IMG/VR virus record: IMGVR_UViG_3300042521_001826
Coordinates: 1 to 31,145 of that record
Origin: a virus
Direction: 5' to 3' (one strand)
DNA: 31,145 nucleotides
Positions 13,322-27,749 of the stretch are shown here, one piece after another. The notes beneath the pieces were generated by a model. That model saw nothing but the letters and a program-made list of their open reading frames with translations, was not told where the DNA came from and did not search any database. Position 1 is the first letter of the stretch, and every line of letters starts with the position of its first letter. Position numbers and translations under genes: made by a program.

Positions 13322-13384
13322 GTGTTGCTAAAAAACAACACTTTCTAAGAAAATGCTTGACGGAATATAGGATTCCTGTATAAT
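13322..13384 (+). promoter_or_regulatory. Promoter cassette: 20-nt palindrome plus extended -10 promoter
   Basis: A perfect copy GTGTTGCTAAAAAACAACAC (13322-13341; 6-bp arms, 8-base loop) is followed 15 bases later by TTGACG (13357-13362), a 16-base spacer ending CCTG, and TATAAT (13379-13384). It drives the CobT-like gene. Confidence 0.8.
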
Positions 13385-16455: not shown

Positions 16456-16555
16456 TTTAGTTACCAATTTGAAAAGAATTAGGTGTTGGACAACGGCAGA
16501 TTCTATGGCCAGAAAATTGATTACCGAATTGATACAGGCACTAGGTGGTAAGTAG
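16442..16555 (+). CDS. 37-residue unknown protein
   Basis: ATG at 16442 overlaps the MazG-like gene and opens a 37-codon frame (MTQNDLVTNLKRIRCWTTAD...ALGGK). It ends in TAG whose last G is the first base of the next palindrome. Helical and basic; the ATG overlaps coding by 14 bases. Function unknown. Confidence 0.4.
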   Translation: MTQNDLVTNLKRIRCWTTADSMARKLITELIQALGGK

Positions 16556-16607
16556 TGTTGCTAAAAAACAACACCTTGGTTGACACCATCCTTGGTTGTG
16601 TTATAAT
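16555..16607 (+). promoter_or_regulatory. Promoter cassette: perfect palindrome plus sigma70-like promoter
   Basis: The second perfect copy of the 20-nt palindrome (16555-16574) lies 5 bases before TTGACA (16580-16585), a 16-base spacer and TATAAT (16602-16607). It drives the GTG-started gene at 16634. Confidence 0.8.
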
Positions 16608-18781: not shown

Positions 18782-18948
18782 TTACATTTTTTGGTATATT
18801 TGGAATACTCATCACCGTACTTGTGGCAGTACCAGCAACTCTGATTGCTATTGCCACCCTTATCGAACATCCAATCCGAACCATTCTTGCTCTATGGTTG
18901 GACCTCATTGAAACTTACAAAAACCTCTGGTATAATATAACGAAGTAA
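18778..18948 (+). CDS. 56-residue membrane protein
   Basis: ATG at 18778 overlaps the previous stop. MITFFGIFGILITVLVAVPA begins one long membrane segment to about residue 30, then a short amphipathic C-terminus. Small membrane protein of unknown role. Confidence 0.55.
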   Translation: MITFFGIFGILITVLVAVPATLIAIATLIEHPIRTILALWLDLIETYKNLWYNITK

Positions 18949-18972: not shown

Positions 18973-19089
18973 ATGGCGAAACCACTCCTAGTACCTCTCG
19001 TATTCCTCTGCGTTTCCGCCGCATCCGGGCCAGCGCTTCCGAAAGGTTCCAATAACCATTCTCAGAAGCCGCTGAGCCACACTAAATGA
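18973..19089 (+). CDS. Possible 38-residue peptide in GC-rich patch
   Basis: ATG at 18973 opens MAKPLLVPLVFLCVSAASGP, signal-like, then a polar tail; the stop overlaps the next ATG. There is no good ribosome binding site, and the base composition is unlike the neighbours (about 54% GC by count over 18961-19080). The region also contains inverted repeats, so it may be RNA rather than a gene. Low support. Confidence 0.3.
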   Translation: MAKPLLVPLVFLCVSAASGPALPKGSNNHSQKPLSHTK

Positions 19090-19241
19090 AACTACTACAC
19101 ATATTCCAATATTGGACCGATACATCACTCTGGTTCAAACCAAAATTCTGGTACTATAACGAAATCACTCCCAAAGGATTCCGATTATTCACTCTTTGTG
19201 GTATTTGCTTCGTCTTTGACCGACCAGAGATATCCATATGA
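19086..19241 (+). CDS. 51-residue aromatic-rich protein
   Basis: ATG at 19086 overlaps the preceding TGA and encodes 51 residues rich in Phe, Tyr and Trp (MKLLHIFQYWTDTSLWFKPK, then FRLFTLCGICFVF). The CxxxC and hydrophobic end suggest membrane contact. It ends 3 bases before the next gene. Function unknown. Confidence 0.5.
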   Translation: MKLLHIFQYWTDTSLWFKPKFWYYNEITPKGFRLFTLCGICFVFDRPEISI

Positions 19242-19244
19242 AGC

Positions 19245-19718
19245 ATGGAAGAAAATAAGAAATCGAATACTGCCAAAGGCCGACACAGTTTCGATGCCGA
19301 GATAGGTGGAACTCTGGTACCTTTCCTTAACAGAAACATATCAGAATATCCCACAGAGGCAGGCGCAGTTAAATTTGAACTGGTACCTGTAACTCAACAA
19401 AAAGACTTAATGATTAACCATGCTAGGATGTATGCCCAGCAGGAATACGATAGAATCATGGAACTGGTCTCTGTATTACAAAAACAGGCTGACGATATTA
19501 AACGCAGATTAAATGTCACGGATGCTGTTCATGCTGCTGTGTACCAGTTTTCACCAGTAATGGGACATATCTATTGGTTAGTATGGGATAAAAGAAAACA
19601 ACACATACTCCTCACACAGAATGGCCCAAACGATTGGACTAGTGGTGTACCTGAAGATTATGAATATCAGACACAGGTAAAGTATATGGGTGACCACACA
19701 TGGATGGAAATAGTTTAA
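19245..19718 (+). CDS. DUF2452-like protein
   Basis: This 157-residue protein has the order of features I associate with the DUF2452 family (eukaryotic C1orf50-like): an N-terminal conserved loop (AEIGGTLVPFLNRNIS), a helix with QQEYDRIMELVSVLQKQADD, then FSPVMGHIYWLVW and GDHTWMEIV at the end. The assignment is from memory and not verified. Biochemical role unknown. Confidence 0.65.
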   Translation: MEENKKSNTAKGRHSFDAEIGGTLVPFLNRNISEYPTEAGAVKFELVPVTQQKDLMINHARMYAQQEYDRIMELVSVLQKQADDIKRRLNVTDAVHAAVYQFSPVMGHIYWLVWDKRKQHILLTQNGPNDWTSGVPEDYEYQTQVKYMGDHTWMEIV

Positions 19719-19742
19719 TATAAGAAAGGACTTTCATACAAT

Positions 19743-19850
19743 ATGAATATAACAACTGATGTATCTGGTAAATGGGTACCAATCCAAGATGTTCTGAAAC
19801 TATTGGAACGAATACAAGAACTGGAGAAACAAATCTATGGATCCCGTTAA
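19743..19850 (+). CDS. 35-residue peptide
   Basis: ATG at 19743 follows AAAGGA by about 13 bases and encodes MNITTDVSGKWVPIQDVLKL, then a helix; it overlaps the next gene by 14 bases. A short helical peptide, function unknown. Confidence 0.45.
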   Translation: MNITTDVSGKWVPIQDVLKLLERIQELEKQIYGSR

Positions 19851-20109
19851 ACTGTATAGAGAACGCTTCTGGTATCTCTGGAACCTCCTGAAAAATTTTT
19901 TTACGTCTGAATACTCCTGTACTGGTTATTGTAACCAAGGGAGAAACTGTACCTGTAGACCTCCCGATATAAGTGGTACTATTATCAAACTCCATAAACT
20001 TTCGAGAACCATAGAGGACCCCGAAGAAAGTATTAAGGTCCGATTACTTGCTGATGAGCTCGCTAAAATTGGCAACCGGCTCCACGAAAAAAAATCTGAG
20101 AATCAATGA
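19837..20109 (+). CDS. 90-residue unknown protein
   Basis: MDPVKLYRERFWYLWNLLKN is followed by a cluster of four Cys (CTGYCNQGRNCTC) and a helical C-terminus. The cysteines could bind one zinc. It overlaps both neighbours, giving a tightly packed operon. No family recognised. Confidence 0.55.
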   Translation: MDPVKLYRERFWYLWNLLKNFFTSEYSCTGYCNQGRNCTCRPPDISGTIIKLHKLSRTIEDPEESIKVRLLADELAKIGNRLHEKKSENQ

Positions 20110-20303
20110 TACTGAATAAGAGAAACTCTCAGACCGCACGGTGGGACCACGATAATAATAAGTGGTCAGTCGGTACTAGAGAATATCAATGGTATCACGA
20201 AACAACCAAAGAGGAATCTCCGTGGATGGACCTCGATGCAGCATTGGTCTGGATCAAGGAACGGGACCAGAAAAAAAATATGGAGAATTTGAATCATGGG
20301 TAG
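20106..20303 (+). CDS. 65-residue unknown protein
   Basis: MILNKRNSQTARWDHDNNKW is Trp-rich and polar, overlapping the previous stop (ATGATA) and the next start by 8 bases. No family recognised. Confidence 0.5.
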   Translation: MILNKRNSQTARWDHDNNKWSVGTREYQWYHETTKEESPWMDLDAALVWIKERDQKKNMENLNHG

Positions 20304-20538
20304 AAATTATCAAGGATCTGGTGCAAAGTCAGACAATGAAGTATCCAGAGAAGCCAGTAAGGCCTCATGGTATAAGACCAATAAAACCATACAACTGAAT
20401 GATAGGTATCGTGCCTATGTCAAGACGGTACCAGAAGGTGAACGACAGATGACCTTTCTGGAATTCAAAGAAACTCAGAAACCTCCTAGGAAAAAATTCC
20501 AGAAAAAACGAAAACCTAGTGGAAGCCCCAGAAAATAA
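20296..20538 (+). CDS. Basic 80-residue protein
   Basis: Starts MGRNYQGSGAKSDNEVSREA, then YRAYVKTVPEGERQMTFLEF, and ends in a very basic Lys/Arg/Pro tail. A charge pattern that fits nucleic-acid binding. It is the last gene before a 420-base gap. Function unknown. Confidence 0.5.
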   Translation: MGRNYQGSGAKSDNEVSREASKASWYKTNKTIQLNDRYRAYVKTVPEGERQMTFLEFKETQKPPRKKFQKKRKPSGSPRK

Positions 20539-20895
20539 AAATTCGAGAAAAAGAGTTTGACCTGGTGGAGCTTTTTTAGCTTATCACTATACTATGGCCC
20601 TCCCGCCCTTACACCATATAGTCGTTTTCATAGCTGCCCTCCAAGCAAGACCAGGCAAGGCGCTGTATAGCAGTCCCGAAGCACTCCGAAGCAGTATCCG
20701 TAAGACTCTATCACCACTCCCATACAGTATCCCACTCAATCCCCACACGGCGCCCAAAGCTGCCACACAACCCTCCGAGCCGTACCACCTCTAAGCGTTT
20801 TCGAGCGTCCTCGTGAACCCCGACCAATTCTCCAGTAGTCCGGTCAAGTATTATCCATAACCGGATCAACCACTTACCGCATGCAAAAATAACGC
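20539..20895. other. GC-rich, C-skewed stretch with no assured gene
   Basis: GC is about 57% in 20641-20820 by direct count, against mostly below 40% around it, and C greatly exceeds G on the + strand. Direct repeats include CCGAAGCA twice near 20680. On the + strand a Pro-rich 66-codon frame (20594-20794) lacks a ribosome binding site. On the minus strand a 59-codon frame from GTG at 20766 to 20587 has GGAGGG 4 bases upstream and reads as a hydrophobic Gly/Leu-rich peptide. Neither can be trusted. No tRNA or U-tract terminator was found. Confidence 0.5.
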
Positions 20896-20923
20896 TTGAC
20901 GGATACCAGAATACCTGTATAAT
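20896..20923 (+). promoter_or_regulatory. Sigma70-like extended -10 promoter
   Basis: TTGACG (20896-20901), a 16-base spacer ending CCTG, and TATAAT (20918-20923). It is the same promoter type as at 13357. It drives the gene at 20957. No palindrome is seen upstream. Confidence 0.75.
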
Positions 20924-20956
20924 TATCTCATTAACTCAGAAAAGAAAGGTTTTAAA

Positions 20957-21232
20957 ATGTTTTCATATATTGACACCATCCAGAATTTACCGGTTGCTCA
21001 GAAGCGCTCACTAGTCAAATCCATTAAGGAAATGATTAAGGAAGATATCGCCTCCAACCGTACCAGTAAGCAGCTAGCTAGCGCCGCTAAACGTGTAGAG
21101 CGTGAAGCCCGCAAGGCGGAACGCATCGCTAAACTAGAAGCAAAGCTCGAAGCACTCCGCAATCCTGTCGGTGTTAAAGCAGTTAAAGCTAATCGCAAAC
21201 CTGGTAAGGTTACCACTACCACTTTCGCTTAA
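20957..21232 (+). CDS. Small Lys/Ala-rich coiled-coil protein
   Basis: This 91-residue protein begins MFSYIDTIQNLPVAQKRSLV and continues as a long basic coiled coil (AKRVEREARKAERIAKLEAK). A start pattern of I-x(3)-LP-x-A-x-K-x-x-L also opens the next gene (21291), suggesting a duplicated domain. It has its own promoter. Function unknown. Confidence 0.6.
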   Translation: MFSYIDTIQNLPVAQKRSLVKSIKEMIKEDIASNRTSKQLASAAKRVEREARKAERIAKLEAKLEALRNPVGVKAVKANRKPGKVTTTTFA

Positions 21233-21237
21233 TAGTG

Positions 21238-21277
21238 AATTTATAATGATGCTTCGCTGAGGTGTCATTAGTAAATT
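21238..21277 (+). promoter_or_regulatory. Intergenic hairpin
   Basis: AATTTATAATGA (21238-21249) pairs with TCATTA-G-TAAATT (21265-21277), 12 pairs with one bulged G, around a 15-base loop. It separates two related small genes. No U-tract follows, so termination is doubtful; RNA processing or stability is possible. Confidence 0.45.
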
Positions 21278-21290
21278 TATTAGGAAAATT

Positions 21291-21500
21291 ATGTTAGATA
21301 ATATTAGAGAATTACCACTAGCAGATAAAAAAACACTATTAGCTATGCTTCAAGCAGATTTAGGGCTTACAGTTAATGTGGATATTACAGTAGATAAACC
21401 TACATGGTATCAAATAGAAACCCGCCGCTGTAATGAGATAGCTATAGTAAAGCGTAGTGGTGGACAGGTAATCTATACAGACTTACAGAGCTGTGAATAA
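21291..21500 (+). CDS. 69-residue protein sharing the LPxAxK start with its neighbour
   Basis: MLDNIRELPLADKKTLLAML shares its first part with the gene at 20957. The rest is beta-like with TWYQIETRRC and ends in a Cys. Preceded by TTAGGAAAATT as ribosome binding site. Function unknown. Confidence 0.6.
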   Translation: MLDNIRELPLADKKTLLAMLQADLGLTVNVDITVDKPTWYQIETRRCNEIAIVKRSGGQVIYTDLQSCE

Positions 21501-21793
21501 GCTCTATTATTCTCTGAATAGCTTAGATATGCTCTAGGATACTCAGGAAATGGTAGGAAACAGTAGGAGAATCGTGGAAACAGACTAAGAGCCGCAATGG
21601 TACTCTATGCAGCGACACAATCCACGATAATCCCACTTTTTCACACTTTATCCCACTTTCTATATTACTTTTGGTTATATAAGAGGTTTTGTGTGTTGTT
21701 TTGTAGCAACATATTGCGGATTTATATTGATTTACTCTACCATTTTCTGTATAATGGTGGTATTATTGAATTATTTGATTAGGAAATTATATT
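21501..21793 (+). other. Intergenic region before the Gp88-like gene
   Basis: About 290 bases with no assured gene. It holds two GGAAACAG copies (near 21554 and 21576), two ATCCCACTTT copies (near 21630 and 21648), TCGTGGA/TCCACGA as a 7-base inverted repeat, and the palindrome-promoter cassette near its right end. A 61-codon frame (21597-21782) runs across the promoter and is not credited. Confidence 0.5.
21693..21755 (+). promoter_or_regulatory. Promoter cassette: inverted-orientation palindrome plus promoter
   Basis: GTGTTG-TTTTGTAG-CAACAT (21693-21712) is the palindrome in reverse orientation. It lies 14 bases before TTGATT (21727-21732), a 17-base spacer and TATAAT (21750-21755). It drives the Gp88-like gene. 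Confidence 0.7.
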
Positions 21794-22570
21794 ATGAAAT
21801 TATTATCTACTGGCAATCCTAAGATTTTGAAAGGTTTGGCACAAGGTTACAATACCTACATTTTGCATCTTGCGCCTGCTTCATTATCTGGACATAATAC
21901 CTGTCCTAAGGCAACGGTTGGTTGTATTGCTTCTTGCCTTAATCTGGCAGGTCGTGGTGGTATGTTTAAGCGTGGTGAGTCCACTAATGTTATTCAGCAA
22001 GCTCGTATCCGTAAGACTAAGCAATTCTATGATAACCGTTCGGAATTCATGGTTGATTTAGTTAAAGATATTGAATTAGGTATCAAGCAGTCTAATCGGT
22101 TAGGTTTAGTACCGGTGTTTAGATTGAATGGCACCTCTGATTTATCATGGGAAAAGTATGAGGTTGTGCGTAATGGTGAAGTCTTTACTAACATCTTTGC
22201 AGCTTTCCCTGATATCCAATTCTATGACTATACCAAGGTGATTGGTCGTAAGGTTGCTGACATTGACAATTACCATTTGACCTTTTCTATGGCGGATGGC
22301 AATTATATGGATTGTAAGCGTGCGGTAGAAGAAGGATTGAATATTGCTGTGGTGTTTGGTATCAAGAAAGGTACTGCAATGCCTAAGAAATTCTTTAATC
22401 ACAATCTATCCGTATTCAATGGTGACGATAGCGACCTACGCTTTCTTGATCCTAAAGGTTGTGTGGTTGGTCTATATGCCAAAGGTAAGGCCAAGAAGGA
22501 TACGAGCGGTTTCGTGAAATATCCAGTTGGAAATTATTCGTTCACTATCAAATTAGATAAGGCGGCATAA
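21794..22570 (+). CDS. Gp88-family protein
   Basis: This 258-residue protein matches the phage Gp88 family, known from mycobacteriophages and T4-like phages: MKLLSTGNPKILKGLAQGYN, then HLAPASLSGHNTCPKATVGC and SCLNLAGRGGM. Conserved Cys (three in the 36-58 region) suggest a metal or Fe-S site, but no function is proven. TTAGGAAATTATATT precedes the ATG, under a cassette promoter. Confidence 0.85.
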   Translation: MKLLSTGNPKILKGLAQGYNTYILHLAPASLSGHNTCPKATVGCIASCLNLAGRGGMFKRGESTNVIQQARIRKTKQFYDNRSEFMVDLVKDIELGIKQSNRLGLVPVFRLNGTSDLSWEKYEVVRNGEVFTNIFAAFPDIQFYDYTKVIGRKVADIDNYHLTFSMADGNYMDCKRAVEEGLNIAVVFGIKKGTAMPKKFFNHNLSVFNGDDSDLRFLDPKGCVVGLYAKGKAKKDTSGFVKYPVGNYSFTIKLDKAA

Positions 22571-22571
22571 T

Positions 22572-22763
22572 ATGAAAACATTTAAAAATGTTAGATATGA
22601 GGTTAGTTGGTACGAACCTAAGTTTGGTTGTAATGATATTAAATCAATATCCAATTATAATAAAGCGTTATCATTGTATAATGAAAAGAAATTGGAAAGA
22701 AGGCGCCATGTATCATTGGAAAAAATTGTATCAGTATTAACTAAAGAATTTATTACACCGTAG
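22572..22763 (+). CDS. 63-residue basic unknown protein
   Basis: MKTFKNVRYEVSWYEPKFGC is followed by a basic helical end. It starts one base after the preceding stop. The MKTFK start is short of the capsid-targeting pattern, so no packaging is claimed. Function unknown. Confidence 0.55.
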   Translation: MKTFKNVRYEVSWYEPKFGCNDIKSISNYNKALSLYNEKKLERRRHVSLEKIVSVLTKEFITP

Positions 22764-23523: not shown

Positions 23524-23590
23524 AATAGTTGACCAATTTGGTCAGCTATTATAAAGGGTTCTTGACATTTTTGGTAGAATCCTTTATAAT
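23524..23590 (+). promoter_or_regulatory. Hairpin plus sigma70-like promoter
   Basis: AATAGTTGACC (23524-23534) pairs with GGTCAGCTATT (23540-23550), 11 pairs with one G-T and a 5-base loop. Eleven bases later comes TTGACA (23562-23567), a 17-base spacer and TATAAT (23585-23590). It has the same stem-loop-then-promoter arrangement as the other cassettes, with an unrelated stem sequence. Confidence 0.75.
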
Positions 23591-27236: not shown

Positions 27237-27637
27237 TGGGTATATCAGCATACAAAGAAATTACCGAATGGAATGAACCAGATTTTGTGGTGCCTAGTCA
27301 TACCTATTTGTTTGATGGTAAGTCTAATATATTGGCCTATGCTCGTGAGAGTGATGGTGAGATTAAGATATTCACCAAACCAATCCCAATGGATACCCGT
27401 AGGCGTAAATTTGTCAAAGTGAACCATAAAGGTTTACAATCAATTGCAGTAACTTTACAATCAACCGAAAAAACTTTACAATCAGACTTTCCTAATTGGC
27501 AGGTGAAATCGGATAGTGGTAAAACCTATACCGTTGAGTTGATTGGTGGTAAATATCATTGTAATTGTATTGGTTATGGTTATCGTGGTAAATGTAAACA
27601 TTCGGAAAGTGTTGCTAAAAAACAACAGGCTGGTTGA
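27236..27637 (+). CDS. SWIM-type zinc-finger protein
   Basis: This 133-residue protein ends in a SWIM motif CxCxnCxH: Cys109, Cys111, Cys120 and His122 (HCNCIGYGYRGKCKH). SWIM fingers bind nucleic acids or proteins. The first two thirds are a mixed alpha/beta region, with a RRRKF basic patch near residue 57. The last 10 codons coincide with a palindrome copy (27609-27628) that begins the tRNA promoter cassette. Confidence 0.75.
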   Translation: MGISAYKEITEWNEPDFVVPSHTYLFDGKSNILAYARESDGEIKIFTKPIPMDTRRRKFVKVNHKGLQSIAVTLQSTEKTLQSDFPNWQVKSDSGKTYTVELIGGKYHCNCIGYGYRGKCKHSESVAKKQQAG

Positions 27638-27674: not shown

Positions 27675-27749
27675 GCACGGTTCGTCTATCGGTTAGGACA
27701 TTGCCCTTTCACGGCAGGAAGACCAGTTCGATTCTGGTATCGTGTACCA
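27675..27749 (+). tRNA. tRNA-Glu (anticodon UUC)
   Basis: All parts can be folded: a 7-bp acceptor stem with G-T pairs, D arm, anticodon stem 27701-27705/27713-27717 around loop CTTTCAC with anticodon TTC (27708-27710), T arm ACCAG-TTCGATT-CTGGT (27722-27738), discriminator A and encoded CCA (27747-27749). It should read GAA/GAG. It has its own cassette promoter. Confidence 0.93.

Follow-up and report, generated by a model that had tools for sequence, protein, structure and literature searches.

What occupies the GC-rich, strongly C-skewed island that separates two plus-strand genes (Table 1) is the question raised by this locus. It lies in a window of 31,145 bases, the whole stretch of DNA analysed, which corresponds to a virus record encoding a GP88-family gene, a ThyX-type thymidylate synthase and a T4-type RNase H; from these genes, the virus is most likely a T4-type phage. 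We conclude that the island probably marks the place where one transcript stops before the next one starts, and not a hidden gene.

Composition and coding content of the island

The whole window has a GC content of 0.370 and a GC skew of +0.127. The preliminary description had reported about 57% GC and a strong excess of C over G at 20641–20820, and recomputation gave the same 57% (GC 0.572, skew −0.359, with 70 C and 33 G, C being about twice G), making this the most extreme part of the window. Over 20560–20895, the values were 0.521 and −0.349. The highest GC of any 180-nt segment fell within the island (0.578 at 20633, against 0.528 elsewhere and a shuffle maximum of 0.544), as did the largest C-minus-G count per 180 nt, which was 46 at 20705, compared with 30 at the next place in the window and a maximum of 29 in the 200 mononucleotide shuffles that set the chance level. 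Since both GC and C excess exceed the rest of the window and the shuffle maxima, the composition of the island is beyond chance. The island itself is therefore real, but its extent, first put at 20560–20895, is wider: the region runs from about 20501, where a conserved element begins, to the promoter at 20896–20923. Elsewhere in the window, the minimum skew was −0.368 at 18830, and a second C-skewed stretch at 18973–19089, probably coding, takes in a gene together with a plus-strand ORF of 38 aa whose start resembles a signal peptide by eye.

Table 1. Features of the island and its flanks (window coordinates; all on the plus strand)
Feature	Position	Strand	Evidence or remark
80-aa gene that closes the upstream transcription unit	20296..20538	+	ORF list; relatives in L092, L096, L098, L099 and L019
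Conserved element (full extent of the match to sequence model R1)	20501..20585	+	77.6 bits, E 1.3e-23; single match in the window
Near-invariant A-rich 30-nt core, AGAAAATAAAAA-N8-AAAGAGTTTG	20530..20559	+	Exact-pattern scan of viral contigs
T run after GGTGGAGC	20572..20577	+	Without counterpart in L046-type relatives
Rut-like tract, rich in C, poor in G and unstructured, in which no reading frame is conserved	20585..20825	+	Composition, folding and alignments
27-bp palindrome-type site AATACTTGAC-N7-GTCAAGTATT, left half degenerate	20826..20852	+	Starts 70 nt upstream of the −35
GATCAACCACTTA	20864..20876	+	Starts 32 nt upstream of the −35
Sigma-70-type promoter for the next gene, TTGACG-N16-TATAAT	20896..20923	+	11 of 12 consensus matches; kept in relatives
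91-aa gene, function not assigned, first of the next unit	20957..21232	+	Relatives in nine loci

The island had also been described as lacking an assured gene, with a minus-strand frame (20766–20587) as a candidate. The frame is present (GTG start, 59 aa), and the GGAGGG noted upstream of it is there as well, as CCCTCC on the plus strand, four bases before the start of the frame; as a gene, however, it did not hold. In an alignment to eight relatives, from which the identical locus L081 was left out, the frame was interrupted by frame-shifting gaps in all eight and by stops in six. The plus-strand ORF at 20594–20794 lacked its ATG in all eight, and a second minus-strand ORF (20869–20711) contained stops in seven. 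None of the three ORFs is thus kept in relatives, and a PHROG search gave no match for the minus-strand frame or for the plus-strand ORF at 20594–20794. Although the window and L081, which is identical to it, have both of these frames open, the gaps, stops and missing start codons leave a protein-coding island close to refuted, and the C-rich patch should not be annotated as a spurious minus-strand gene.

A near-invariant core followed by a C-rich tract

Relatives of the locus were collected by protein-guided scans of viral contigs, taking the best 80 loci of each scan, and loci with the same gene order as the window were recovered. L081 is identical to the window over 19001–22600. The downstream 91-aa and 69-aa genes are common to L083, L084, L085, L088/L089, L090, L139, L082 and L086, and relatives of the 91-aa protein in nine loci besides L081/L161 showed 61–79% identity over at least 88 aa. 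When the intergenic sequences were compared, strong conservation emerged where the island begins on its left, in an element with an A-rich core within which lies the TAA stop codon of the 80-aa gene.

The exact-pattern scan of viral contigs for the core returned 97 stretches. The collected loci contained 78 distinct core copies, of which 75 were kept as real elements; L187, L188 and L197, whose surroundings resemble coding sequence, were discarded before counting. The core was 30 nt long in all 75, with gaps of 2–10 permitted by the scan; these 75 are related sequences and not independent events, and the pattern fixes 22 core positions, at which invariance is by construction. Variants outside the exact-pattern constraint were found in L005, L053, L151 and L155 (E < 1e-7) and, more weakly, in L087 (E 0.007) and L091 (E 0.001). 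A looser pattern returned mostly chance matches and was dropped. A similar junction with a diverged core (e.g. AAAAAAAGTTACTGAA before TTTGACC) is present in L082, L086, L089 and L093, the first three of which retain the same downstream genes and promoter.

Model R1 was built from 78 sequences, with that of the window (as L081) among them. Eleven of 20 long virus records had one strong match each (E < 1e-14), a figure that describes copy number and not prevalence, as these records were picked as known carriers and most of them had fed the model. Marginal extra matches (E 0.003–0.08) occurred in four of the 11 (G002, G003, G006 and G015). Among the other long records, the variant present in G010 and G017 was weak (best E 7e-5 and 3e-6, respectively), G014 had a marginal match (E 0.03) and six had none. 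Of 84,980 genomes of bacteria and archaea, none matched the core pattern extended by ACC exactly. BLAST searches with the island region or with the element of a relative against 50,697 records of cultured phages gave chance-level matches only (best E 4 and 0.2), in runs with a low-complexity filter by which the A-rich core may be masked. An Rfam search of the window returned nothing at the island, the sole match at gathering score being a tRNA at 27675.

The composition downstream of the core was counted in 70 of the 75 elements, those followed by at least 120 nt, the other five being too short. Mean GC in these 120 nt was 0.553, compared with 0.383 upstream, and mean skew was −0.369, compared with +0.095 upstream (n=70). 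Skew was below −0.2 in 65 of the 70 tracts. By the terms of the preliminary description, its reading would fail if the corresponding sequence in related phages were random and ordinary in composition, which it is not: GC was above that of the tract's own upstream sequence in 69 of 70 cases, and skew was below it in all 70. The five tracts without clear C skew belong to L171, L183, L218, L220 and L229. In L171, L218 and L229, TTTGGG replaces TTTGAC, and in L171 and L229, the core is followed by hardly any C-rich tract, so core and tract are separable. In the 172 kb of G001, skew this negative occurs at the tract and at one other place, and six other plus-strand windows match or exceed the C excess of the tract; in G002, the tract is below that threshold and 998 other windows do so. 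Imported DNA, another origin proposed for the island, is unlikely because the tract recurs at the same place in relatives and the core pattern has no exact copy in the prokaryote genomes searched.

Given that the element is near-invariant, noncoding and kept while neighbouring genes differ, it must do something specific. The invariance of the core points to a specific reader, either an RNA- or DNA-binding protein or a replication function.

Candidate functions of the element

The end-of-run position of the element is observed directly. In 72 of 74 cases, a count made without a control set, the end of a plus-strand ORF of 60 aa or more falls in the interval from −350 to +60 relative to the core, and in 48 of these 72 it falls within −70 to +35. 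The tract is followed either by a convergent gene, frequently an ORF of about 215 aa, or by a gene in the same direction that has a promoter of its own. Of the 51 loci with enough sequence, 24 were classed as co-directional and 27 as convergent by a rough ORF rule that visibly misclassifies some of them. A strict TTGAC..TATA[AC]T promoter at +60 to +700 was found in 13 of the 24 co-directional loci vs one of the 27 convergent ones, and this lone case, L139, is really co-directional.

At slightly less than even confidence, we read the island as a transcription-unit boundary, in which C-rich RNA loads Rho and transcription then restarts from a regulated promoter. The upstream plus-strand unit would end at the A-rich element, which lies across the last stop codon or shortly after it. 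RNA past the element would be untranslated, C-rich, G-poor and unstructured, so the tract is where host Rho could load and halt RNA polymerase, and the sigma-70 promoter with its two precisely spaced upstream sites would start the next plus-strand unit. Termination would then be the selected function, and the core may be recognised for this purpose, as RNA or as DNA. Besides the position of the element and the downstream promoters, this reading draws on the resemblance of the tract to a Rho loading site and on the precedent of T4.

As for the resemblance, the rut-like rule of RhoTermPredict calls for six C residues spaced 11–13 nt apart and for C over G in 78 nt. It was satisfied by 65 of 70 tracts vs 99 of 720 control stretches and, when C/G > 2 was required, by 56 of 70 vs 23 of 720, the controls being taken from gene-dense upstream sequence of the same loci and thus mostly coding. 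The C-rich, G-poor bubble of the window spans 155 nt, where about 70–80 nt or more is expected; in this length, in its little structure and in its untranslated position after a stop codon, the tract agrees with Rho terminators. Rho also prefers pyrimidine-C steps, a preference and not a strict requirement; in the tracts, these steps are not enriched beyond composition (observed/expected 1.016, with 37 of 70 above expectation). Further points speak against Rho. Ordinary Rho termination needs no near-invariant core; five of 70 tracts lack clear C skew, and that of G002 is unexceptional; and a generic terminator would be expected at other operon ends, whereas the strand examined in G001 has only one other such C-rich place.

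As for the precedent, a T4 review states that Rho added in vitro restricts T4 transcription to immediate-early RNA, which implies sites upstream of delayed-early genes, and that later work put the effect of Rho in vivo down to RNA binding and not to termination (PMC2988021). The island shares with the early/delayed-early Rho terminators (rut sites) of T4 a C-rich, unstructured, untranslated RNA at a unit boundary in a T4-type phage. It differs in that its tract is accompanied by an almost invariant A-rich 30-nt core across many viruses. Moreover, Rho action at the island is predicted from sequence, and the review itself offers a non-termination alternative for T4 (PMC2988021).

Structured RNA, proposed earlier for the island, found no support in folding. 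For the tract of the window, z was −0.02 on the plus strand and −1.22 on the minus strand, and the means in relatives were −0.44 in 17 co-directional and 0.02 in 55 other cases, with no structure beyond chance. A structure signal at +55 to +155 (mean z −1.48, n=70) is explained by the segment +85 to +155 (z −2.12, n=53), where the convergent gene has its terminator; z for the tract proper is near zero. A hairpin at the element is a separate matter, as GC arms around an A-rich loop, followed by a U run, could form an intrinsic or factor-assisted terminator or a processing hairpin, to which the C-rich tract would be secondary. We consider this unlikely. Like intrinsic terminators, the island element has GC arms and then a T run, which is present in most elements but missing from those of the L046 type; unlike in intrinsic terminators, the loop of about 30 nt is the most conserved part, the hairpin is weakly supported and the T run is lost in a subgroup. 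Predicted folds pair arm2 with arm3 in 49 of 69 unique elements, yet RNAalifold on 78 sequences predicted no pair. Of two windowings, one gave own arms a slight advantage over swapped arms (p 0.011, one of six tests, uncorrected), and the other showed no difference (p 0.47 and p 0.32). The variants in L151 and in L046/L168/L186/L218 look compensatory by eye, while the core fold has a z of just −0.27 and a simple terminator scan, in which only loops of 3–8 were allowed, found no site in the island. With no consensus fold and with arm swaps that cost nothing in two tests, the conservation of the core is one of sequence and not of a proven hairpin. Two further structures were rejected: an upstream arm1–arm2 hairpin that appeared compensatory by eye (own −8.23 vs swapped −8.46 kcal/mol, p 0.80), and a pseudoknot between the A run and the T run, for which core position 19 is T in eight of 75 elements without a compensating change and the L046 type has no T run (by eye).

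Conservation in sequence and not in structure would also suit a sequence-specific cis site in DNA, with an A-tract core and a strand-biased flank, used for replication initiation or bound by another protein; we regard this as slightly less likely still. It would agree with the single strong copy in each of the 11 long known-carrier records and with the fixed core length in the 75 kept elements. Iteron-like [AC]AAAGTAYTAC repeats occur three times in the L176 island and four times in that of L247, but at least two such repeats were found in just three of 75 islands. The element follows a plus-strand ORF in nearly all cases, as counted above, which argues against a DNA site. The origin suggested in the preliminary description survives within this alternative, but the GC-skew switch expected of a bidirectional origin is absent at the element in G001 and G002, the two records considered, where mostly same-strand genes lie on both sides. 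The repeats of L176 and L247 lie no further than about 215 nt past the core, with one and none, respectively, in the rest of the contig. A genome-end (cos-like) role is unlikely because the element is internal, at 45.9 kb of 172 kb and at 137 kb of 174.5 kb.

A noncoding RNA spanning the C-rich tract and transcribed from its own promoter, with TTGACC of the core as −35, appears highly unlikely. A-tracts do precede TTGACC, and L180, L194 and L212 have a perfect TATAAT 16 nt past it. However, a −10-like score above 3 was reached in 12 of 72 elements, vs a mean of 6.8 and a maximum of 14 in shuffles, the −10 of the window itself is poor (1.7), and the tract has neither structure beyond chance nor, in the window, an Rfam match. 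A class-wide sigma-70 promoter in the core was rejected, as −10 hexamers 15–19 nt from TTGACC did not exceed the shuffle maximum (12 of 72).

Terminators and early promoters are known kinds of element at phage operon junctions. The combination of a fixed 30-nt core with a C-rich tract, in one strong copy per record, was not described in the titles and abstract openings of the literature searched. It is quite possible, though less likely than not, that many uncultivated T4-type phages share a cis element, present once per genome, that has not been described before. Its A-rich core would be read, as RNA or DNA, by a factor with sequence specificity that the phage may itself encode, and the factor would act with the C-rich tract, giving a regulated end of the main early operon or a replication start at one defined place. 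If it is a dedicated end signal, it would provide a sequence handle on early-operon insulation in uncultivated T4-type phages and would allow a clean test of the idea that Rho-loading tracts serve phages as designed boundaries. Should it instead be an origin or bind a factor, these phages would have such a site defined by its sequence.

The downstream promoter and its upstream sites

The promoter of the 91-aa gene, which stands out as sharply defined among the relatives closest in arrangement to the window, is preceded by two sites at fixed distances (Table 1). These were compared in the 22 segments with a TTGAC..TATA[AC]T promoter, a set in which the window and the identical L081 are counted separately and in which the promoter found in L093 is the core itself. 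The palindrome-type site starts 68–70 nt upstream of the −35 in 20 of the 22, with 3–5 mismatches in a search that tolerated up to nine. A ATCAANNNNTT-type site with at most one mismatch starts 31–32 nt upstream of the −35 in 18 of the 22, and it is exact in six. The copy in the window, GATCAACCACTTA, is one mismatch away from the IHF-type consensus WATCAANNNNTTR. The same palindrome occurs at 23524–23550, ahead of a second promoter at 23562, and its consensus is about AATAGTTGACC-N5-GGTCAACTATT. Because of this second copy and the recurrence of the palindrome in many relatives, it looks like an operator and suggests a phage regulator with a small regulon.

At other places in the window, a hairpin, GTGTTGCTAAAAAACAACA(C), is repeated at 13322–13341, 16555–16574 and 27609–27627, with a variant at 21693. 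The three copies directly precede TTGAC..TATAAT-type promoters at 13357, 16580 and 27634, and the pairs of hairpin and promoter resemble, in simple form, the PeSL (promoter early stem-loop) cassettes of T4-type phages. The island differs from such cassettes in its other conserved core, its long C-rich tract and its operator-type sites, and in being a single strong copy in the records examined; it is like them in lying at an intergenic junction where an end signal is followed by an early-type promoter.
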